A stretch of DNA of 42,891 nt from Desulfobacterales bacterium (GTDB taxonomy: Bacteria; Desulfobacterota; Desulfobacteria; Desulfobacterales; JAHEIW01), in NCBI GenBank assembly GCA_030145015.1, contig JAQYWI010000025.1:1-42891 (forward strand), written 5' to 3'. The translations under genes were made by a program, and so were the position numbers. This document shows positions 5,336 through 42,282 of the stretch, in pieces. The notes under the pieces were generated by a model. It was not told the DNA's origin, searched no databases, and was given only the letters and a program-made list of their open reading frames with translations. Every line of letters starts with the position of its first letter. The stretch's first letter is position 1.

Positions 5336-6046
5336 TCAGTTTTCCTTTATATATCCATTAACAATAATCACGAGCTCGGGCTTTTGGGGCTGGTCGGTTC
5401 GGACAATCAGGTGCCCGCTAAATTCCCCTGCTTTTTTCGATATATCTTCAACCGCCAGCGTATAGGCATAACCGGGTTTGATTTCCTCGAGGCGCCATTT
5501 GATGTGATCCGGCAAATCATTGTCAACACCGGTAATTTTAAAGGGCTGCTTGTGATTATTGATGATTTCGAGCTTTTCCCCGGGCACCCGGCCCTTGACA
5601 CCCTGCAAGGCGAGATAACCACCCGGAACCAGTGAGATATGGGGTTTAACCTCCCCCATCAGGTAGAGCGCAACACTCTTTCTCACCGGGTCATTGGACC
5701 AAACAATTGCCTTTTTGTGAAATTCCTCTCTGACTCTGCTCGTATCGATTCCTAATGTAATTTGTCCCGTCCCGCCGGGAGGGATGACCCGATCATAACG
5801 GGTCACGATGCAGCCTCATGAATGCGTCACATCCAATATTTCAAGATCGGCGGTTCCCTGATTGATCAGCTTAAAACTGTGAGACAGTTGTTCACCTTCA
5901 AAAACGGCGGAGAAGGTATGTGTGATTTGATCGAAATGAATCACCGGCGTACTTTCAGATTGCTCTGCAAATAAGAGCGATCCAAAAAGAACGATGATTA
6001 TCAAAAAAATGAGCTCTATAAATAGTTTGATAATATTTTTGATCAT
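5336..6046 (-). CDS. Candidate selenoprotein: exported DUF1573-like protein with in-frame TGA
   Basis: Two adjacent minus-strand reading frames are really one frame of 236 codons, interrupted only by TGA at 5816-5818 (codon 77). Residues 1-27 are a signal peptide ending near LFA. The part before the TGA, ending in EILDVTHS, and the part after it, GCIVTRYDRVIPPGG, join into the DUF1573/MSP-like pattern in which the family has SCGC. The TGA falls exactly on the first Cys, giving S-U-G-C. The downstream part continues with the family-like PGG and WSNDP segments to residue 236. A ribosome site AGGGGA precedes the ATG. An 8-bp hairpin starts 9 bases after the TGA. The family's role is poorly known; a periplasmic thiol/selenol site is an inference. 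The alternative is a pseudogene made by one Cys-to-stop change. Confidence 0.75.
5784..5806 (-). promoter_or_regulatory. Candidate bacterial SECIS hairpin
   Basis: On the minus strand GTGACCCG (5799-5806) pairs with CGGGTCAT (5784-5791) over 8 base pairs, one of them G-U, around the 7-base loop TTATGAT. The loop starts 17 bases after the TGA, within the range reported for bacterial SECIS elements, and it contains a G. The hairpin lies inside the coding region, as bacterial SECIS elements do. SelB binding has not been tested. Confidence 0.6.
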
Positions 6047-7045: not shown

Positions 7046-8968
7046 ATGAGCGATATTTCACTTACATTTCCCCACATTCTCTTGGATAACGTCCGGAAAT
7101 TTCCTGCCAGCAAGATCGCCATACGTGAAAAAGAGTATGGCATCTGGCAGTCTTATTCCTGGCAGGATTCTCTTGACCAGGTCAGGGATTTTGCCCTCGG
7201 GTTGGCTGCTTTAGGTTTCAAGAAAGAAGACAAAATGGCCATCATCGGGGACAACCGGCCCCGGCTCTATTGGGGTATGGCCGCCTGCCAGTGCCTGGGA
7301 GGGGTGCCCGTTCCCCTTTACCAGGATGCCATCCACAAGGAGCTTCAATTCATTGTCGATCATTCAGAGTGCAGATTCGCCCTGGCCGAAGATCAGGAAC
7401 AGACCGACAAACTCATGCATCTGAAAGAGGAGATCCCCAGGATTGAATATATCATCTATACGGATCCCAGGGGGCTCAGAAACTACAAGCATGACTGGCT
7501 CCTTGACATAAGCGATGTGCAGGAGATGGGCCGCAAGTTCGCCCGGGAAAACCCCGACTATTTCATGAATGCGGTCAATGAGGTAAAACCCGACGATATG
7601 TCCCTTATCGCCTATACCTCGGGTACCACCGGCAATCCAAAGGGCGTCATGATAACCCACCGCATGATCGCCGATTGTTCCCGCGGATTTCTTGAATGGG
7701 ACAATCTGGATGAGACGGAAAATATCATGGCCTATCTCCCGATGGCCTGGATCGGGGACCATATGTTTTCCTACGGCCAGGCCCTGACGGCCGGATTTAC
7801 CGTTAACTGTCCGGAAAGCACCACGACAACATTCCATGACCAGAGGGAGATCGGCCCCACCCATGTCTTTGCCCCCCCCCGCATCTGGGAAAATATCCTG
7901 ACCCAGATCATGATCAAGATAGAAGATGCCGCCTGGATCAAACAGAAGGCCTTTCACTACTTCATGAAGGTCGCCAACCGGGTGGAAAAAAAACGAATTG
8001 TCAATGAGCCGGTTCCGTTTGCCGATCGCATTTTATACGCAATAGGCAGAATACTCATATACGGGCCCCTGCTTGATAATCTGGGCATGAGTAAGGTCAA
8101 AGTGGCCTATACCGCCGGGGAGGCTATTGGCCCGGAAATCTTCGAATTTTACAGATCTTTAGGCATCAATCTGAAGCAGCTCTACGGTATGACGGAGAGC
8201 TGCGCCTATGTCTCCATGCAAAAAGATGGGGATATCGATTCCGAATCCGTAGGTCCGCCGGCACCGGGCGTGGAAATAAAGATCTCTGACAGCGGCGAGG
8301 TTATGTACAAGAGTCCCGGCAATTTTATCGGCTATTTTAAAAACCCGGAAGGCACGGCCGAGACCATGGAGGACGGGTGGCTCCTATCCGGCGATGCCGG
8401 TTACATTACCGAGCGGGGACATCTCAAAATCATCGACCGGGCCAAGGATGTGAGCAAATTAAATCACGGCACCCTGTTCGCCCCCAAATATATCGAGAAC
8501 AAACTCAAATTCAGCCCCTATATCAAGGAGGCAGTAGCGCACGGAATGAGTCGGGATTTTGTGGCTGTCTTCATTGATATCGATTTTGGAGCTGTGGCCA
8601 ACTGGGCCGAAAGGCGCCAAATCGGTTTTACCAGCTACACCGACCTGGCCCAGAGGCCCGAGATCTATGACCTCATTTACAACGAGATTCTGCGGGTCAA
8701 TAAAAGCCTCAGCCAGGATGAGCATCTCAAAAATTCCCAGATCAAACGCTACCTCCTGTTGCACAAGGAACTCAACCCGGATGACAGTGAAATCACCCGC
8801 ACCCGCAAGGTGCGCAGGCGCTTCATTGCCGAAAAATATGAAAACCTCATCAATGCCCTCTATGAGGGCAAAGACAATGTCGATGTGGAAGCCAAGGTTA
8901 CCTATGAGGATGGCCGCAGCACAACTATGAAGGCCAATCTCAAGATTCGGGACGTGGAAACCTATTAA
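7046..8968 (+). CDS. AMP-forming long-chain acyl-CoA synthetase
   Basis: The 640-residue product is a member of the FadD15/long-chain acyl-CoA synthetase branch of the AMP-binding family. It should activate a carboxylic acid with ATP and CoA, via an acyl-adenylate, in the cytoplasm. The P-loop YTSGTTGNPKGV is at 190-201, YGMTE follows near residue 380, and the GWLLSGDAG segment holds the conserved Asp that binds ribose. Length fits the long branch. It lies 39 bases after tetR and 15 before the LivG-like ATPase. This coupling of a CoA ligase with a HAAT transporter suggests that an imported acid is activated at once. The exact chain length or ring substrate cannot be read from sequence. Confidence 0.92.
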   Translation: MSDISLTFPHILLDNVRKFPASKIAIREKEYGIWQSYSWQDSLDQVRDFALGLAALGFKKEDKMAIIGDNRPRLYWGMAACQCLGGVPVPLYQDAIHKELQFIVDHSECRFALAEDQEQTDKLMHLKEEIPRIEYIIYTDPRGLRNYKHDWLLDISDVQEMGRKFARENPDYFMNAVNEVKPDDMSLIAYTSGTTGNPKGVMITHRMIADCSRGFLEWDNLDETENIMAYLPMAWIGDHMFSYGQALTAGFTVNCPESTTTTFHDQREIGPTHVFAPPRIWENILTQIMIKIEDAAWIKQKAFHYFMKVANRVEKKRIVNEPVPFADRILYAIGRILIYGPLLDNLGMSKVKVAYTAGEAIGPEIFEFYRSLGINLKQLYGMTESCAYVSMQKDGDIDSESVGPPAPGVEIKISDSGEVMYKSPGNFIGYFKNPEGTAETMEDGWLLSGDAGYITERGHLKIIDRAKDVSKLNHGTLFAPKYIENKLKFSPYIKEAVAHGMSRDFVAVFIDIDFGAVANWAERRQIGFTSYTDLAQRPEIYDLIYNEILRVNKSLSQDEHLKNSQIKRYLLLHKELNPDDSEITRTRKVRRRFIAEKYENLINALYEGKDNVDVEAKVTYEDGRSTTMKANLKIRDVETY

Positions 8969-8983
8969 CGGAGAAAATGCGCT

Positions 8984-9778
8984 ATGAACGAAAAAAAGGA
9001 GCCCCTGCTGCGCGCAGAAAATATCCATATCTCCTTTGGGGGTCTCAAGGCCCTGAATGATGTCAGCCTGGAGATCTACCCCGGTGAGATTATGGCAATA
9101 ATCGGGCCCAATGGTGCCGGCAAGACCACCATGCTGAATATTATCAACGGATTTTATAAGCAGGATGAGGGCCAGATCTTCTTTGAGGGCAAAAAACGGT
9201 CCAAAAGGATGAAACCGAACCGTATTGCGGCCCAGGGAATAGCCAGGACTTTTCAGAATTTGGCGCTGTTCAGGGGCATGTCTGCTCTTGGCAACATCAT
9301 GATGGGGCGGACCATGAAGATGCATGCCAACATCTTTTCCCAGGGGCTTTATTGGAAATTCAGCCAGAAAGAGGAACTAGAGCACAGGGCGGCTGTAGAG
9401 AAAATCATCGATTTCCTTCAGATCCAAAACATCCGCAGGACTCCGGCCAGTACGCTCCCGTATGGATTGCAAAAAAGGGTGGAACTCGGCAGGGCCCTGG
9501 CAGCAGAACCCAAGCTTTTGCTGCTGGACGAACCCATGGCCGGCATGAACCTGGAAGAGAAAGAAGATATCGCCAGATATGTTTTGGATGCCAATGAAGA
9601 ATTAGGTTACACCATTGCCCTCATCGAACATGATATGGGGGTGGTAATGGATATCTGTGACCGCATTGTGGTGCTTGATTTCGGCAACAAAATTGCCGAA
9701 GGGACTCCCGAAGAAATCAAGTCAAATCAGAAAGTCATCAAGGCCTATTTGGGCGAAGCAGAAAACGATGGACAGTGA
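8984..9778 (+). CDS. livG: HAAT ABC transporter ATPase, LivG-like
   Basis: The 264-residue product is the LivG-type ATP-binding subunit. Walker A GPNGAGKTT is at 41-49, the signature region LPYGLQKR at 158-165 replaces a strict LSGGQ as is common in LivG, and Walker B LLLLDEP spans 178-184. The ARTFQN segment at 87-92 is typical of LivG. It would pair with the LivF-like ATPase at 13763-14578 and energise the two permeases. A CGGAG ribosome site precedes the ATG. The symbol states family resemblance; the substrate need not be a branched-chain amino acid, given the CoA ligase just upstream. Confidence 0.9.
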   Translation: MNEKKEPLLRAENIHISFGGLKALNDVSLEIYPGEIMAIIGPNGAGKTTMLNIINGFYKQDEGQIFFEGKKRSKRMKPNRIAAQGIARTFQNLALFRGMSALGNIMMGRTMKMHANIFSQGLYWKFSQKEELEHRAAVEKIIDFLQIQNIRRTPASTLPYGLQKRVELGRALAAEPKLLLLDEPMAGMNLEEKEDIARYVLDANEELGYTIALIEHDMGVVMDICDRIVVLDFGNKIAEGTPEEIKSNQKVIKAYLGEAENDGQ

Positions 9779-9975
9779 GCTAAAGTGACTAAAGTGAACT
9801 AAAGTTAAGGAATGCTACCTTTCGAGAGCCTCCCTTCGAGAGCCTCCCTTCGAGAGCCTCAGGGTCTAACGACAGGGTCGGACGACCATTTTAAAAAAGA
9901 TGGAGCGAAGCGACACCCTAACTTTAGGCACTTTAGGCATTTTAGATCACTTTAGGCATTTAAAAAACAGAGGAG
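9779..9975 (-). repeat. Dispersed inverted-arm repeat element, copy 1
   Basis: The gap between the ATPase and first permease holds a composite element. The left arm repeats a degenerate nonamer like CTAAAGTGA. The right arm (about 9916-9960) carries its complement, such as ACTTTAGGC. In between, TTCGAGAGCCTCCC occurs at 9821-9834 and 9835-9848, with a variant at 9849-9862. Bases 9850-9892 recur inverted at 42440-42482 with 4 differences in 43, and the TGGAGCG region near 9901 recurs inverted in 14604-14765. It interrupts an operon without an obvious terminator. Confidence 0.75.
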
Positions 9976-9981
9976 TAACAT

Positions 9982-10869
9982 ATGGCTTTTTTCGTTGAAG
10001 TACTGGTTACGGGGCTTATGGTGGGCATCATGTATTCCCTGGTGGCCCTCGGGTTTGTCCTCATCTTCAAGGCATCGGAGGTCTTTAACATGGCCCAGGG
10101 GGCCATGAGCCTTTTTGCAGGCCTCGCGCTTGTCGGATTCCTGGATCAGTATCTGCAGCTCCCGCTGTGGCTTGCCCTTTTAGGCACCGTCGCTGTCATG
10201 ACCATCTGGGCCTATGTCGTCGTGTTTGTTGTCCTCAAACCCCTGGTGGCCCGGCCGCCTCTGATGCTCTTTATGGCCACTTTCGGCGTGGCGTATCTCA
10301 TGGAGGGGATCGGCCAGTCTATTTACGGGACCCAGGCCAAGGGGTTGAATCTGGGTATTCCGGACACTCCCCTTGAGATAGCCGGTATATTCCTGAGCAC
10401 CTTTGATCTATTTTTTACAGGCGTAGCTGCCATTCTGGTGGTAGGGTTGGTCTGGTTTTTTCAGAAGACCCGGAGCGGCAGGGCCCTGAGGGCCGTATCC
10501 GATGACCACGAGGCGGCCCTGTCTGTGGGTATCCCGCTGTTGAAGGCCTGGACGATCACCTGGATCGTTGCCGGCGTGGTCGCCACCGTGGCGGGCGTCG
10601 CCTGGGGCACCCGCCTGGGCGTCCAGTTCAGCCTTACATATATTGCCCTTAAATCGCTGCCGGTGCTGATTATCGGCGGGATCGATAGTATTCCCGGTGC
10701 CATTGTCGCCGGCCTCATTGTCGGGGCCGGGGAGAATCTGGGCGAGGTCTTCCTCGGCCCGTATGTAGGCGGAGGCATTCAGACCTTTTTCCCCTATCTG
10801 CTGGCCCTGATTGTCCTCTATTTTAAACCTTACGGTCTGTTTGGAAAAGAGATCATCGAGAGGGTGTGA
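9982..10869 (+). CDS. livH: HAAT ABC transporter permease, LivH-like
   Basis: The 295-residue product is a very hydrophobic inner-membrane protein with about eight predicted helices. It opens with the LivH-like pattern GLMVGIMYSLVALGFVLIFK and has FNMAQG near residues 35-40. The cytoplasmic loop with SDDHEAALSVGIP is the usual coupling region that meets the ATPase. A GAGGAG ribosome site precedes the ATG at 9982. It forms the membrane channel with the LivM-like permease downstream. Regular family length, no defects. Confidence 0.92.
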   Translation: MAFFVEVLVTGLMVGIMYSLVALGFVLIFKASEVFNMAQGAMSLFAGLALVGFLDQYLQLPLWLALLGTVAVMTIWAYVVVFVVLKPLVARPPLMLFMATFGVAYLMEGIGQSIYGTQAKGLNLGIPDTPLEIAGIFLSTFDLFFTGVAAILVVGLVWFFQKTRSGRALRAVSDDHEAALSVGIPLLKAWTITWIVAGVVATVAGVAWGTRLGVQFSLTYIALKSLPVLIIGGIDSIPGAIVAGLIVGAGENLGEVFLGPYVGGGIQTFFPYLLALIVLYFKPYGLFGKEIIERV

Positions 10870-29499: not shown

Positions 29500-30396
29500 G
29501 TGATTTTAGTAATAGGTGAGATACTGTTTGATGTATTTCCAAATTACAGGCGCCTTGGCGGAGCGCCTTTTAATTTTGCCTATCATCTTAAAAATTTCGG
29601 CTTTAATGTTCGCTTTATATCGAGGATAGGGATGGATGAAGCGGGTAAGGAAATTTTGTACAAGCTGGAATTGGCTCGATTTAATCTGGACGACATACAG
29701 GTAGATGATGACAAGCCGACCGGAAGTGTAAATGTCCGGCTGGACAACAGCGGTGCGCCCCAATTTGACATCATCTCTGACGTGGCCTACGATTATATAG
29801 ATTTTGTTCCGGAATACCATTCAAAGCTTATCGATGCTGCTAAGATTATATATTTTGGTTCTCTCGTACAAAGAAGCAAAGCAGGTTGTGAAAACTTACA
29901 GGCATTTATTTCTCGTAACGCATCAGAAACGCTCAATTTTTACGATATCAACATGCGGCCCGGCTGTTATAACAATGCCATTATTGAAAAATCGCTTACA
30001 AAGACAGATATCTTAAAATTAAACACGGGTGAGCTGGGGAAATTAAAACAAATGCTGTCTTTAAAAGTAAGCAATGACGATCTTGTATATCATTTAATGG
30101 AGACACAATCGATCAGTACGGTATCTTTGACAAAGGGTGAGGCGGGAAGTGAGTTGTTCACGAACCAAGGCTGCTTCAACTCCGAACCGGCAGAAGCAAT
30201 AAAGGTTGTTGACTCAGTTGGCGCGGGTGACGCCTATGCGGCGATGCTTGCAGCGGGTCTTCTCGAAAAATGGCGATCGGAGGAGATATTAGAGCGGGCT
30301 TCGCTGTTTGCCTCCCGAGTCTGCGAAATTAAAGGCGCAATTCCAGATTCAGCATCCTTTTACGAACCTTTCAAAGCTCTTTTTGCAGATGATTGA
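29500..30396 (+). CDS. PfkB-family sugar kinase, probable fructokinase
   Basis: The 298-residue product is a ribokinase-fold sugar kinase. It has GGAPFNFAYHLKNFG at 20-34, the substrate region RIGMDEAGKEIL at 42-53, and the catalytic motif DSVGAGDAYAAML with Asp244 as base. GTG is the start, placed by AAAGGAG 7 bases upstream. Lying between the phosphatase and the synthase, it would phosphorylate the fructose released by sucrose synthase to fructose-6-phosphate, which sucrose-phosphate synthase can reuse. Fructose as substrate is inferred from this setting. Its end overlaps the start of the next gene by 8 bases, implying coupled translation. Confidence 0.88.
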   Translation: MILVIGEILFDVFPNYRRLGGAPFNFAYHLKNFGFNVRFISRIGMDEAGKEILYKLELARFNLDDIQVDDDKPTGSVNVRLDNSGAPQFDIISDVAYDYIDFVPEYHSKLIDAAKIIYFGSLVQRSKAGCENLQAFISRNASETLNFYDINMRPGCYNNAIIEKSLTKTDILKLNTGELGKLKQMLSLKVSNDDLVYHLMETQSISTVSLTKGEAGSELFTNQGCFNSEPAEAIKVVDSVGAGDAYAAMLAAGLLEKWRSEEILERASLFASRVCEIKGAIPDSASFYEPFKALFADD

Positions 30397-32590
30397 AATC
30401 ATGAGACCTCAAAAATACCATATTCAAATGTTTAGTGTGCATGGCTTGCTTCGAGCAGAAAACATGCAGCTGGGGCATGATGCCGACACGGGAGGCCAGA
30501 TCAAATATGTTGTTGAGCTGTGCAATGCGCTCAGTCAATCTGAAAATATTGGGCGTGTGGAGCTTTTTACCCGCCTCATTCACGACAAAGCCGTATCCGA
30601 AGACTACGCCCGGCCCGTCGAGCAGGTCAACGACAAATTCAGCATTGTTCGCATTCAGTGCGGCGGGAAAAAGTATATGCGCAAGGAGCTCCTATGGTCG
30701 CATCTCGATGAATATGTGGATAAAACCATTAAATACATCAAGCGTCAAAATGCCATCCCCGACATCGTCCATGGCCATTATTCCGATGCGGGTTATGTTG
30801 CCATGCAATTGGCCGAAATCTTTGGCACGCCTTTTTTTTATACCGGCCATTCCCTCGGTCGCTTAAAAATGAAACGACTGACCGATGAGGGTATGAAAGA
30901 GGAAGTTATTAATAGAAAATATAAAATCGATTATCGGATCCAAATGGAAGAAGAGGTATTGAAAAAAGCCGATTTGATCATTACCAGTACCCACCAGGAA
31001 GTTGCCGAACAATATGGACAATATCATAATAAGGACATTCCCAAATATCACGTCATACCACCGGGGCTGGATGTTGAAAAGTTTTATCCGTTTTATCACG
31101 ATATGCTGCCGGAGACAGATAAAGAAGAAATTGAACTTTATGCTCAGGCTTCAATGCTCGAGGAGTTGAATCGTTTCTTTATGCATCCTGACCGTCCTTT
31201 CATCCTATCACTTTGTCGCCCGGACAAGCGCAAAAATATTGCAGGATTAATCAAAGCTTACGGCGAGGATTTGGAACTGCAGTCGATGGTCAACTTAGCC
31301 ATTTTTGCAGGTATTCGCAAGGACATCACCGAAATGGAAGACAATGAACGCGATGTCCTCACCGAGATTCTTTTGCTCATGGACAAATATGATTTATACG
31401 GCAAAATTGCCATCCCCAAAAAACACGATTTTGAGCACGAAGTGCCGGAGCTTTACCGGATTGCTGCGGAAAAGAAAGGCATATTCGTCAATTCTGCTCT
31501 AACAGAGCCTTTCGGTCTCACCCTGATCGAGGCAGCCGCCTGCGGACTGCCGATTGTAGCGCCTGACGATGGGGGCCCCCAAGACATTGTTAAAAATTGT
31601 CATTGTGGCATCCTGGTAAATACCACAGACTCCAAAGCCATTGCCGATGCCGTCAAGAAAATTATCACTGACAGTGAAAAATGGAAACAGTATTCCAAAG
31701 ACGGCATCATGAATATTCGCAAACACTACACATGGGATAGTCATGCAACGTCATACATGAAGCAACTCAGTCGTATTTTCGCAGGTCAGGATGAAGAGAA
31801 GATGGAGGTCGCTGTGCCATCCGATGCCATTGGCCGACGCCTGGCAAGGCTAAACTATTTCATCATTGCCAATATCGACAACACGCTGGTCGGCGATAGT
31901 AACGAGCACCTATCGGCGCTTTTAGCGCTGCTTCAGGAAAACAGAAATCATATTGGGTTTGGTTTGGCAACCGGCCGTACTTTTGAATCGGCGACCAAGT
32001 TTTTAAAAGAACATCATGTACATTTGCCGGATGTCCTTATCACATCTGTGGGCGCAGAAATTTATTACGGGAAAAGCCTGCACTATGGTCGCGGCTGGAA
32101 AACGCACATATCGGCCAAGTGGAACCGTGAAAAAATTGTTAACCTGTTAAAGGGTTTTACGTTTTTAAAATACCAGAAAGCCGATGTGCAGCGGCGCTTT
32201 AACATCTGCTATGAAATAGAGCCGGCCAAAGACCGTCTGGCGATGATTCATGAGCGTCTGCTTAAAAATCAATGCCGTTACAATTTGATTTATTCCCAGG
32301 ATAGATACCTGGATATTCTCCCCTATCGGGCATCCAAGGGCAAGGCCATCCGCTACCTTAGTTATAAGTGGGAAATACCTCTGGGAAACTTTTTGGTCTG
32401 CGGGGATTCCGGAAATGATGAGGAGATGCTGCGCGGAGAACCCCTTGGAGTGGTTGTGGGCAATTACAACCCCGAACTAAAAAAACTTAAGGGAACCCGA
32501 GGTATTTACTTTGCCAAGCAAAAATATTCCGGCGGGATACTTGAAGGGATAAAGCGACATCAATTTATTGAGAAGGCTGCTCAACGTTAA
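30389..32590 (+). CDS. sps: Sucrose-phosphate synthase with inactive phosphatase-like domain
   Basis: The 733-residue product has two domains. Residues 10-465 form a GT4 glycosyltransferase with GHDADTGGQIKYVVEL near 29-44, GHYSDAGYVA, LSLCRPDKRKN and the EPFGLTLIE motif at 373-381. It should join UDP-glucose and fructose-6-phosphate. Residues 488-730 resemble sucrose phosphatase and keep GDSGNDEEML, but the nucleophile is lost: motif I reads NIDNTL, with Asn495 for the Asp. The domain is therefore probably non-catalytic, as in plant synthases, and the separate phosphatase gene supplies the activity. I start at ATG 30389, which overlaps the kinase stop; ATG 30401 is also possible. Confidence 0.9.
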   Translation: MIEIMRPQKYHIQMFSVHGLLRAENMQLGHDADTGGQIKYVVELCNALSQSENIGRVELFTRLIHDKAVSEDYARPVEQVNDKFSIVRIQCGGKKYMRKELLWSHLDEYVDKTIKYIKRQNAIPDIVHGHYSDAGYVAMQLAEIFGTPFFYTGHSLGRLKMKRLTDEGMKEEVINRKYKIDYRIQMEEEVLKKADLIITSTHQEVAEQYGQYHNKDIPKYHVIPPGLDVEKFYPFYHDMLPETDKEEIELYAQASMLEELNRFFMHPDRPFILSLCRPDKRKNIAGLIKAYGEDLELQSMVNLAIFAGIRKDITEMEDNERDVLTEILLLMDKYDLYGKIAIPKKHDFEHEVPELYRIAAEKKGIFVNSALTEPFGLTLIEAAACGLPIVAPDDGGPQDIVKNCHCGILVNTTDSKAIADAVKKIITDSEKWKQYSKDGIMNIRKHYTWDSHATSYMKQLSRIFAGQDEEKMEVAVPSDAIGRRLARLNYFIIANIDNTLVGDSNEHLSALLALLQENRNHIGFGLATGRTFESATKFLKEHHVHLPDVLITSVGAEIYYGKSLHYGRGWKTHISAKWNREKIVNLLKGFTFLKYQKADVQRRFNICYEIEPAKDRLAMIHERLLKNQCRYNLIYSQDRYLDILPYRASKGKAIRYLSYKWEIPLGNFLVCGDSGNDEEMLRGEPLGVVVGNYNPELKKLKGTRGIYFAKQKYSGGILEGIKRHQFIEKAAQR

Positions 32591-32607
32591 AGGATTAGGG
32601 ATTCAAC

Positions 32608-35025
32608 ATGAAAAATGTCTTAAATGAGATCCTGAATAAAAAGGATCGCAAGGATTTCAAAGAATTTGTAGTGTTTGTTACAAATCAGCAGTTCGGCATC
32701 TGCCTTAGAAACGGCATCATGCAGCTTTTCCGTCAGTACTGCGATCAGCATAATAAGACTCAAAAGTTTCGCCAGAATTCATCGATGTTTAATTTTTTAA
32801 AAAAGGCACAGGAACTTTTTTTAACCGATGGAACTCTGGTGATGCTGCATCGCTATGCAATCGCAAAGTATCGTTTTTACCGCATTCGCCTGGATGGAGA
32901 ATATATGGAAGAGATCTCGCTCAAAGACTATCTGGACCTTAGAGATCTCCATTTTTTGAAGAAAAAAAGAGACAATTACCAACTGAAAATTGATTTTATG
33001 CCGTTTTATGATTTTTCCCCGTCGATTCGAGATACCCGTAGTGTGGGCAACGGTATTCGTTTCCTGAACCGATACATGTGCAGCAACATTTTCAGCCGGC
33101 CCGATGAGTGGAATGCCAAGCTGTTTCAATTCATTCAGCTCCATCAGCATAACGGCCGACAATTGCTTGTCAACGGCGCGTTCATCAGGGATTTAGAAAC
33201 ATTTTACACTAAGATTGAAAAAATACTGGAATGGCTGAAACCCAAAAACCCGGAGGCCCCATATAGCAGCGTAGAAATCCGAATGAAAAAAGAAGGTTTT
33301 GAGGTTGGCTGGGGCAATACCGTGGGCCGGATATTAGAAACATTTCAGACGTTGCTTGACCTTATCAACGAACCCACCGATCAATTGTTAGAACATTTTA
33401 TCTCTCGCGTGCCGATGCCCCTCATCTCGAAGATCGCTATAATTTCTCCCCATGGCTGGTTCGGACAAACCAATGCTTTGGGCAAACCGGATACCGGCGG
33501 TCAGGTTATTTATATTCTTGATCAGGTGCGCGCTCTTGAAAAGCATTTAGCAAAAGAAATTCGACTGACCGGATTGGATGTCAAACCCAAAATAGTCGTG
33601 TTGACCCGTTTAATTCCTGAGGCACAAGACACAACCTGTGATCAGCGAAAAGAGGAAATTTTCCAGGCCGATAACAGCTATATTCTGAGAGTGCCTTTCA
33701 GAGACAGTCAATATAACATCGTCAAACACTGGGTTTCGCGGTTTAAAATCTGGCCTTATCTTGAAACTTTTGCAGAAGATGCCTCCAGAGAATTGCTGAG
33801 TGAATTTGAGGGACGCCCGGATCTAATCATCGGCAACTATTCAGATGGCAACCTTGTGGCCTCCCTGCTTTCCGACAAGTTTGATGTCATTCAGTGCACC
33901 ATTGCGCATGCGCTTGAAAAGACAAAGTATGCGTTTTCCGATTTGCACTGGCAAGAAAATGAAAAGGACTACCATTTTTCACTTCAGTATACAGCGGATA
34001 TTTTTTCAATGAATAAGTCTGATTTCATTATCACCAGTACATTACAAGAAATCATCGGTACCGAAGATACTATGGGTCAATACGAATCATACCAGTTTTT
34101 TTCACTGCCACAACTCTACCAGGTTGTCAATGGCATCAATTTATTTGCACCCAAATTTAATGTCATCCCACCTGGAGTCGACGAGCAGTTATATTTTCCC
34201 TATTACCAAAAAGAAAAAAGAGTAAAGACAAAACGGCAACAATGGGAGAACCGGCTGTTTCACGATAACTCTGATGACATTTACGGCAAATTGGACCATC
34301 TGGACAAAATACCCATCTTCACAATGGCCAGATTCGACAAGATAAAGAATATTACCGGCCTGATTCAGGCTTTTGGTATGAGCAAAAAACTTCAGAATGC
34401 TTGCAACCTCATTTTTGCAGCTGGCACAATTCATGTCGAAGATTCCAGTGATTCTGAAGAGCGAAATGAGATTATTAAGGCTTATGATCTCATCGAAAGT
34501 TATAATCTGCATGGTAAATTACGCTGGCTGCCCAGCATCAACAAACTCGATACCGGCGAAGTATACCGTGTCATTGCTGATCAAAGGGGGATATTCGTGC
34601 AGCCAGCGTTATTCGAAGCCTTTGGACTTACGATCATCGAAGCCATGGCCTCTGGACTCCCCACATTTGCACCTAAATTCGGTGGCCCACTTGAAATCAT
34701 AGAATATGGGACCAGTGGCTTTTTAATGAATACCAGTAAGCCCGATCTGATTGCAAAAAGTCTGGAAAATTTTTTAGAACATTCTAAAAAGGATAAGAAT
34801 TACTGGGAAACGATATCAGAAAATGGAATTAAAAGAGTTCGAGAGAATTTTAATTGGAAATCTTACAGCCAGCGCCTGATCAACCTGGCAAAACTTTACG
34901 GTTTCTGGCGTTATGCCGTATCAGGGAAAGGAATGATTGAACTGGATCGTTATTGTGACTTAATTTATCATTTCCTTCTAAAGGAAAAAGCACAAAACCT
35001 TGAGAGCCAAATGCCTCCCGAATAA
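32608..35025 (+). CDS. sus: Sucrose synthase
   Basis: The 805-residue product has the full length of sucrose synthase, which reversibly makes UDP-glucose (or ADP-glucose) and fructose from sucrose. An N-terminal regulatory region of about 265 residues is followed by the GT-B domain with SPHGWFGQTNALGKPDTGGQ, then YSDGNLVA, TIAHALEKTKY, FTMARFDKIKNITGL and the nucleotide-sugar motif EAFGLTIIEAMASGLP. It lies 17 bases after the synthase gene, so the four genes likely form one operon. Together they can make sucrose and also open it to nucleotide sugar and fructose, which the adjacent kinase recovers. Confidence 0.93.
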   Translation: MKNVLNEILNKKDRKDFKEFVVFVTNQQFGICLRNGIMQLFRQYCDQHNKTQKFRQNSSMFNFLKKAQELFLTDGTLVMLHRYAIAKYRFYRIRLDGEYMEEISLKDYLDLRDLHFLKKKRDNYQLKIDFMPFYDFSPSIRDTRSVGNGIRFLNRYMCSNIFSRPDEWNAKLFQFIQLHQHNGRQLLVNGAFIRDLETFYTKIEKILEWLKPKNPEAPYSSVEIRMKKEGFEVGWGNTVGRILETFQTLLDLINEPTDQLLEHFISRVPMPLISKIAIISPHGWFGQTNALGKPDTGGQVIYILDQVRALEKHLAKEIRLTGLDVKPKIVVLTRLIPEAQDTTCDQRKEEIFQADNSYILRVPFRDSQYNIVKHWVSRFKIWPYLETFAEDASRELLSEFEGRPDLIIGNYSDGNLVASLLSDKFDVIQCTIAHALEKTKYAFSDLHWQENEKDYHFSLQYTADIFSMNKSDFIITSTLQEIIGTEDTMGQYESYQFFSLPQLYQVVNGINLFAPKFNVIPPGVDEQLYFPYYQKEKRVKTKRQQWENRLFHDNSDDIYGKLDHLDKIPIFTMARFDKIKNITGLIQAFGMSKKLQNACNLIFAAGTIHVEDSSDSEERNEIIKAYDLIESYNLHGKLRWLPSINKLDTGEVYRVIADQRGIFVQPALFEAFGLTIIEAMASGLPTFAPKFGGPLEIIEYGTSGFLMNTSKPDLIAKSLENFLEHSKKDKNYWETISENGIKRVRENFNWKSYSQRLINLAKLYGFWRYAVSGKGMIELDRYCDLIYHFLLKEKAQNLESQMPPE

Positions 35026-41715: not shown

Positions 41716-42282
41716 TCAATTTGTCTCAGAAAGCAGCTGTTCGATCACCTTCCGGCCTTCTGCGCTTTTCCACTCCCGATAGCCGCGCGCAAAGGCAACG
41801 ACTTTGCCCTGGGTGTTTATGAAAAAATTTGCCGGGATTCCCTGCACACCGTACTGGACGGCAAACTCAGATGTGGGATCTAGTAAATTCAGGAAAGTCA
41901 GGTTATGGTTTTTGACATAATCTTCCAATTGCTTTCTAACTTCTTCAGCGCTTCCCCGGTCAATAGAGACGGCCAAAATGACCAGCCCTTTGCTTCTGTA
42001 ATCTTGATGGAGCTTTTCCAGAGAGGACCTCTCCTTGAGGCAGTAAGGTCACCAGGTGGCCCAGAAATTCAACATGATAAACTTTCCTCGGAAATCACCC
42101 AGGCTTCTTTTTGTGCCCGTTAAATCCGAAAGGGTAAAATCCGGGGCATCAATCTTTTCGTCTAACCTATATACGCCAAATTTTGTCAGGTGGTCCTCTG
42201 CCCCCCACAGGGGGAAGTCACCTGTCAGCAAAATAAGAGAGAGGCTCAAAAAATATAGTGAAACCCGTCTTGTTACCTTCAT
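41716..42282 (-). CDS. Candidate selenoprotein: TlpA-like thioredoxin with UPYC motif
   Basis: One minus-strand frame of 188 codons is interrupted only by TGA at 42049-42051 (codon 78). Residues 1-28 are a signal peptide. Residues 45-77 read APDFTLSDLTG and MLNFWATW, the standard TlpA/ResA lead-in to the CxxC site. The TGA takes the place of the first Cys: W-U-P-Y-C, Cys81 being the partner. After it the fold continues intact with LVILAVSID, the cis-proline region GIPANFFI and the final helix. The protein would be an exported thiol-disulfide oxidoreductase with a more reactive selenol. A 6-bp hairpin follows the TGA. The alternative, a recent nonsense mutation, is less likely with the frame intact and a second such gene at 5336-6046. 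Confidence 0.8.
42020..42034 (-). promoter_or_regulatory. Candidate bacterial SECIS hairpin
   Basis: On the minus strand GGAGAG (42029-42034) pairs with CTCTCT (42020-42025), one pair being G-U, around the 3-base loop GTC. The loop begins 20 bases after the TGA and has G in its first position, both matching the usual description of bacterial SECIS elements. It lies within the coding sequence. Confidence 0.6.

Follow-up and report, generated by a model that had tools for sequence, protein, structure and literature searches.

The DNA analysed here, referred to as the window, is the whole stretch of 42,891 nucleotides of contig JAQYWI010000025.1 from a Desulfobacterales bacterium. It carries on its minus strand two genes which contain an in-frame TGA, one coding for a DUF1573 protein and the other for a TlpA/ResA-like protein. 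The features are given below by their positions in the window.

5336..6046, minus strand: DUF1573 gene (Pfam PF07610) of 236 codons, very probably coding for a selenoprotein, as translated with TGA read as selenocysteine (Sec); full-length homologous frames are present at 9/9 nearest loci
6046-6044, minus strand: ATG start codon of the DUF1573 gene
5816..5818, minus strand: in-frame TGA, codon 77, read as Sec from the comparison of site codons in 103 loci
5810..5812, minus strand: TGC codon of Cys79, the conserved partner of Sec77 in a U-G-C dyad
5784..5806, minus strand: SECIS-like hairpin of 8 pairs with a loop of 7 (with the last pair open, 7 pairs and a loop of 9), suggested by folding, covariation and comparison with Cys loci
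41716..42282, minus strand: TlpA/ResA-like gene, likely another selenoprotein gene, with TGA at 42051-42049 in WATW-U-PYC; it is not in an operon with the DUF1573 gene

The DUF1573 gene has a single in-frame TGA and also terminates in TGA (5338-5336, minus strand), and 159 of its 236 residues lie past codon 77. The initial annotation had given the same frame, the same TGA, 236 residues with U at 77 and 159 codons after it, all of which proved right; the minus strand is added here. It had also placed the TGA at the first Cys of the SCGC motif of the family, and this agrees with the domain match. In the DUF1573 domain of the window the motif is S-U-G-C with the TGA at the position of the first Cys, and Pfam DUF1573 (PF07610) matches residues 36-133 in one piece spanning the TGA (E 1e-20; 74 bits against a gathering score of 26.1, over the full profile 1-98). 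The N-terminus is a hydrophobic segment, predicted as a helix at residues 2-24 in the structure model, and resembles that of an exported protein. Two other observations on the window may be recorded here. A group II intron match (Rfam RF01999, 105.7 bits) lies at the window end, at 119-238 on the minus strand, and two long adjacent frames at 30308-35025 on the plus strand resemble, as read by eye, sucrose-phosphate synthase and sucrose synthase.

The codon at the site was compared across 103 loci, which comprise the window, 12 loci from named genome records (L001-L012) and 90 places from the bacterial class that contains the genome of L002; two of the class loci (L029, L030) repeat L002 and L003. 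Homologs with Cys or TGA at the site had been named as the expected support for the Sec reading, and nothing else was found, as the codon was TGA in 89 loci, TGC in 13 and TGT in one, so that Cys stands at the Sec position in 14/103 loci. All nine loci L001-L009, which are labelled as Desulfobacteraceae, Desulfobacterales or Deltaproteobacteria, have TGA, and the distant L010-L012 have a Cys codon in the matched copy. The class search covered 389 genomes with matches in 273, and the 90 places read (30 loci from the best matches and 60 picked down the matches listed) gave 79 TGA and 11 Cys. In the family of L001's genome 42/46 genomes match, and of 60 places among the matches listed 58 have exactly one TGA, two have no stop and none has TAA or TAG. 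Exceptions were seen at L043, with TAA or TAG three codons upstream of the site, and in G174, with TAA within the match at one listed place. The Acidobacteria record of L012 has two neighbouring DUF1573 genes (7986-9053 and 9175-10248, plus strand), the site being Cys in one of them and TGA in the other; this TGA copy was left out of the 103-locus count. The motif itself varies, being U-S-C and not U-G-C in L001, L004 and L006.

The history of the site was followed on a 96-row tree that was built with this position masked. After removal of the two repeats and the window 101 sites remained, 6 of which were unplaced, so that the tree holds the window plus 95 further rows for which both start and stop were placed. 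It is a quick, midpoint-rooted tree in which 35/93 inner branches have support below 80. The highest-identity row to the window protein is L001 (67% over 203 columns). The Sec (82) and Cys (14) states require 6 changes, a number as low as which was reached in 0/500 shuffles, and at least five changes are required by the starred branches. Nine Cys rows form one group within the Sec rows and the remaining ones are scattered; two of the scattered rows adjoin a Sec copy of the same genome, namely that of L012 and that of the L099 and L103 pair in G226. The simplest reading of these sequences would be that Sec is the older state in this class and Cys the younger. The presence of Cys at the site could have been tied to loss of the Sec machinery, and no such link was found. 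SelB was above the cut-off in 4/6 genomes in which the only place sampled was a Cys one (G059, G169, G172, G216, G174, G030), against 17/20 in which only TGA places were sampled (not in G312, G324 and G339), and in all four further genomes G293, G099, G115 and G226; not all copies per genome were read in this comparison.

It could be argued that the TGA is a true stop, the working gene being the 156-codon frame from GTG at 5806, or that the locus has decayed. Such a frame does exist, and it matches DUF1573 weakly by itself, the part past the TGA giving 28.3 bits alone. It also corresponds to the database form of most relatives, since a protein search gave 192 relatives, and 119 of the 120 listed have 134-165 residues and start just past the site. 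These short starts, judged from protein records only, appear to be cuts made by gene finders. However, in the nearest relatives the frame before the TGA is open and conserved and has a signal-like start, hardly any stop apart from TGA is seen there, the Cys homologs run through, and the Sec/Cys state switches back and forth on the tree; with a start past the site the protein would be deprived of its N-terminal segment and of half its domain. A true stop or a pseudogene is thus rejected on account of the codons read at the site, the pattern of a single TGA and the Cys homologs, and is regarded as very improbable.

The TlpA/ResA-like gene is relevant to the same question. It has 1172 relatives, and among the best 120 of these, 109 fit a Cys pattern at the site, four close relatives have Trp there (P0125, P0126, P0127, P0201) and another close one, P0226, ends exactly at the site; it is the distant relatives that have Cys. 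The hairpin past its TGA has a G-U loop and only -5.2 kcal/mol, which is below the published bacterial SECIS (bSECIS) rule given in the next paragraph, and the 48 bases past the TGA are no more stable than shuffled sequences (z -0.33). Two likely Sec genes within one 43-kb window support each other. Trp at the site also occurs in one of the 120 listed DUF1573 relatives, P0041, which has 227 residues and runs through. These Trp letters would be the ground for supposing that the TGA is read as Trp, or another ordinary amino acid, through a changed code or leaky suppression. But both genes terminate in TGA, and none of the 103 loci has a Trp codon at this position. Going by the protein records, the simplest explanation of the Trp letters is gene calling with a translation table in which TGA stands for Trp. 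Such a reading is ruled out by the same site codons, single-TGA pattern and Cys homologs, and can be given hardly any probability at all.

The sequence 3' of the TGA in the window can form the hairpin GUGACCCG-UUAUGAU-CGGGUCAU. It has 8 pairs, one of them G-U, begins 9 bases past the TGA and has its loop at 17 bases, just as the initial annotation had described it. A search with a bacterial SECIS predictor had been proposed as well. According to section 5 of PMC13188914 the bSECIS rule asks for a stem of 4-16, a loop of 3-9 with G in the first two bases, 16-37 bases from the UGA, and at most -7.5 kcal/mol. In our own implementation the window satisfies the rule at its edges, with 7 pairs, a loop of 9 starting with G-U, a spacing of 16 and -9.3 kcal/mol. 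With both strands counted, the window has 1647 TGAs, of which 59 pass the rule at -7.5 and 29 at -9.3, and 4.5% of 400 synonymous recodings fold equally well; dinucleotide shuffling of the 48 bases revealed no excess stability (z -0.25, 81/200 as good). The window hairpin by itself is only moderately unusual. The Sec signal exceeds chance because of the comparison across loci, that is, site codons, folding, covariation and tree, and not because of this hairpin alone.

In that comparison the 42 bases past the site had a mean of -12.95 kcal/mol at 88 TGA sites, the corresponding mean for 14 Cys sites being -7.2 (p 3e-7). The z relative to synonymous recodings was -1.36 against -0.18 (p 5e-4), and both statistics ignore kinship. 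For alignment of the stem each sequence was put in the best of four registers, 52 falling in one, 32 in another and 4 elsewhere. Covariation was observed in the larger register group at pair 17-30 (T-A 21, C-G 19, T-G 12) and at pair 18-29 (C-G 41, T-A 8, T-G 3). Only 19/88 TGA sites and 0/14 Cys sites conform, in our own code, to the bSECIS rule with a G heading the loop, which speaks against a textbook SECIS. In the second register, L047 and L058 among others have strong stems with loops, for example TTATAC, that do not have a head G. According to PMC13188914 some bacterial SECIS elements lie outside its model, and the G-less loops of the second register possibly represent a different SECIS class.

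The Sec machinery was looked for in the 12 genomes of L001-L012. Above the cut-offs, tRNA-Sec was found in 11 (not G003), SelA in 11 (not G004) and SelB in 10 (not G005 and G008), and at least two of the three are present in each genome; the gaps may be due to incomplete genomes. The tRNA-Sec search was not clean, as it gave places above the cut-off in 5/14 control genomes, and therefore the best place per genome was counted, which scored 68.6 to 78.3 bits in ten of the relatives' genomes and 55.8 in G004. SelB and SelA were above the cut-off in 2/14 and 1/14 controls, respectively. In the class, SelB was found in 25/30 genomes searched. Taken with the site codons, these sequence comparisons make it very likely that the TGA at 5818-5816 encodes selenocysteine and that the gene codes for an exported DUF1573 selenoprotein. 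By analogy with established bacterial Sec decoding, SelB and tRNA-Sec would decode the UGA at codon 77 with the aid of the downstream stem-loop, and translation would continue past codon 77 to the TGA at 5338-5336.

The Sec form of DUF1573 is an already known selenoprotein family, of which the clade of the window is a divergent part. A "DUF1573 domain-containing protein, UGC" is tabulated as a selenoprotein family in the tables found in PMC9312934 and PMC13188914; the latter, a 2026 review, links the entry in its table to its reference 60, which is cited there also for the Olavius algarvensis symbiont. The protein of the window has the features of this family, with an in-frame TGA followed by Gly and Cys within the domain. 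Its best NCBIfam match is NF041425, OS_HP2 family (seleno)protein, over residues 40-134, and with Cys put for Sec it misses the cut-off by 4 bits (96.0 against the curated 100). Six relatives in the clade of the window score 93.7 to 103.1 bits with two of the six above the cut-off, and all 23 members of A3 match NF041425 at E <= 0.001. The Sec decoding proposed by the initial annotation is strongly supported, and none of the refuting findings that it had listed turned up where a comparison could be made; the family is not new (PMC9312934, PMC13188914, NF041425). DUF1573 is named in only three of 5.39 million papers searched, the third having it in a row of a table, and the passages found give no function for it; the literature search returned no report of a CGC disulfide-isomerase motif, an ASH-domain selenoprotein or a class-wide Sec DUF1573. 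A single-sequence search of the PDB with the protein gave no match; 0/13 pattern matches in viral contigs encode a DUF1573-protein relative, and plasmids gave one record with a weak match only.

It had been suggested that Sec would mark the redox-active Cys of the family and point to its function. Sec at the site does mark the reactive residue, but alone it does not give the function. The structure model of the protein is predicted to be beta-rich, the matches listed for it being Ig-like, among them the ASH/PapD-like domains of HYDIN (2e6j), the VesB Ig domain (4lk4) and a P. gingivalis DUF (2qsv), and the Pfam matches, taken up to E 1, include no thioredoxin family. Cys79 is Cys in 96/96 rows and, counting from 50 residues ahead of the site, 77/96 rows have no further Cys; this conservation, together with the Ig-like fold, favours a redox pair. 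On balance the protein is somewhat more likely than not an exported selenol/thiol redox protein built on an Ig-like fold. It would act as a two-electron redox protein in which Sec77 and Cys79, placed in a loop of the Ig-like (ASH/PapD-like) domain, alternate between the selenol/thiol and the selenenylsulfide; it could act on exported partners whose sulfur is oxidised, as disulfides or otherwise, with electrons coming from a separate reductant.

A selenoprotein in which Sec77-x-Cys79 binds a metal or metalloid such as copper, mercury or zinc, instead of cycling between redox states, is also conceivable. It would suit the lone U-x-C pair of these 77/96 rows, as well as a His conserved at position 56 in 90/96 rows, and other selenoproteins in the tables found in PMC9312934 and PMC13188914 are named as mercury- or metal-related. 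However, no metal-protein family was matched in Pfam or NCBIfam, no metal-handling gene is prominent as a neighbour in the loci clustered, and PMC9312934 describes the majority of predicted prokaryotic selenoproteins as similar to thiol oxidoreductases. Metal binding is therefore held to be unlikely, and the redox reading is preferred.

The gene neighbourhood was also considered as a guide to function. In 19 class loci (L143-L161) a HAD-like hydrolase gene is next downstream on the same strand in 14 and a priA-like gene lies upstream in 8, both counts being lower bounds since genes of GC-rich loci may escape the ORF picker; the identities come from Pfam runs on two of the HAD-like genes and one of the priA-like genes. 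The HAD gene was seen at 0/7 loci of the window's clade. There, the window, L001, L004 and L006 have a TetR gene upstream in divergent orientation, an acyl-CoA ligase-like gene is present in the window, L001, L002, L004 and L006 (Pfam was run on the TetR and ligase genes of the window), and branched-chain-type transporter genes occur in the window, L001, L002 and L006. Neither arrangement tells the function.

Our data add to the tables of the two reviews the extent of the Sec form (79/90 class places), the history of the Sec and Cys states and a covarying hairpin. The fact that Sec is kept at exactly one DUF1573 residue across most class places read identifies the reactive atom and opens the function to experimental test. 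An error of automatic annotation is demonstrated as well, as 119 of the 120 listed relatives are truncated just past the Sec codon. A wider picture is offered only tentatively and, taken as a whole, is doubtful. The Sec form might be ancestral and usual for DUF1573 in the whole bacterial class, with Cys derived several times, and the protein might be a widespread exported redox enzyme on an Ig/ASH domain rather than a thioredoxin fold, having the U-x-C dyad as its sole active-site pair and a SECIS type mostly lacking the usual loop G.

Comparison with known systems places the protein as follows. With the ASH/PapD-like Ig domains (2e6j, 4lk4, 2qsv) it shares a likeness of fold, which implies no function. 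With the TlpA/ResA-type selenoproteins it has in common an exported thiol/selenol pair in the same organism, but these have a thioredoxin-family domain with UxxC, whereas the DUF1573 protein has a UxC on what appears to be an Ig-like domain. NF041425 OS_HP2 is the nearest NCBIfam family, yet the match is below its curated cut-off. With the DUF1573 selenoprotein UGC (PF07610) it shares the same domain and the same U-G-C with Sec at the first Cys, and there is no difference in kind between the two.
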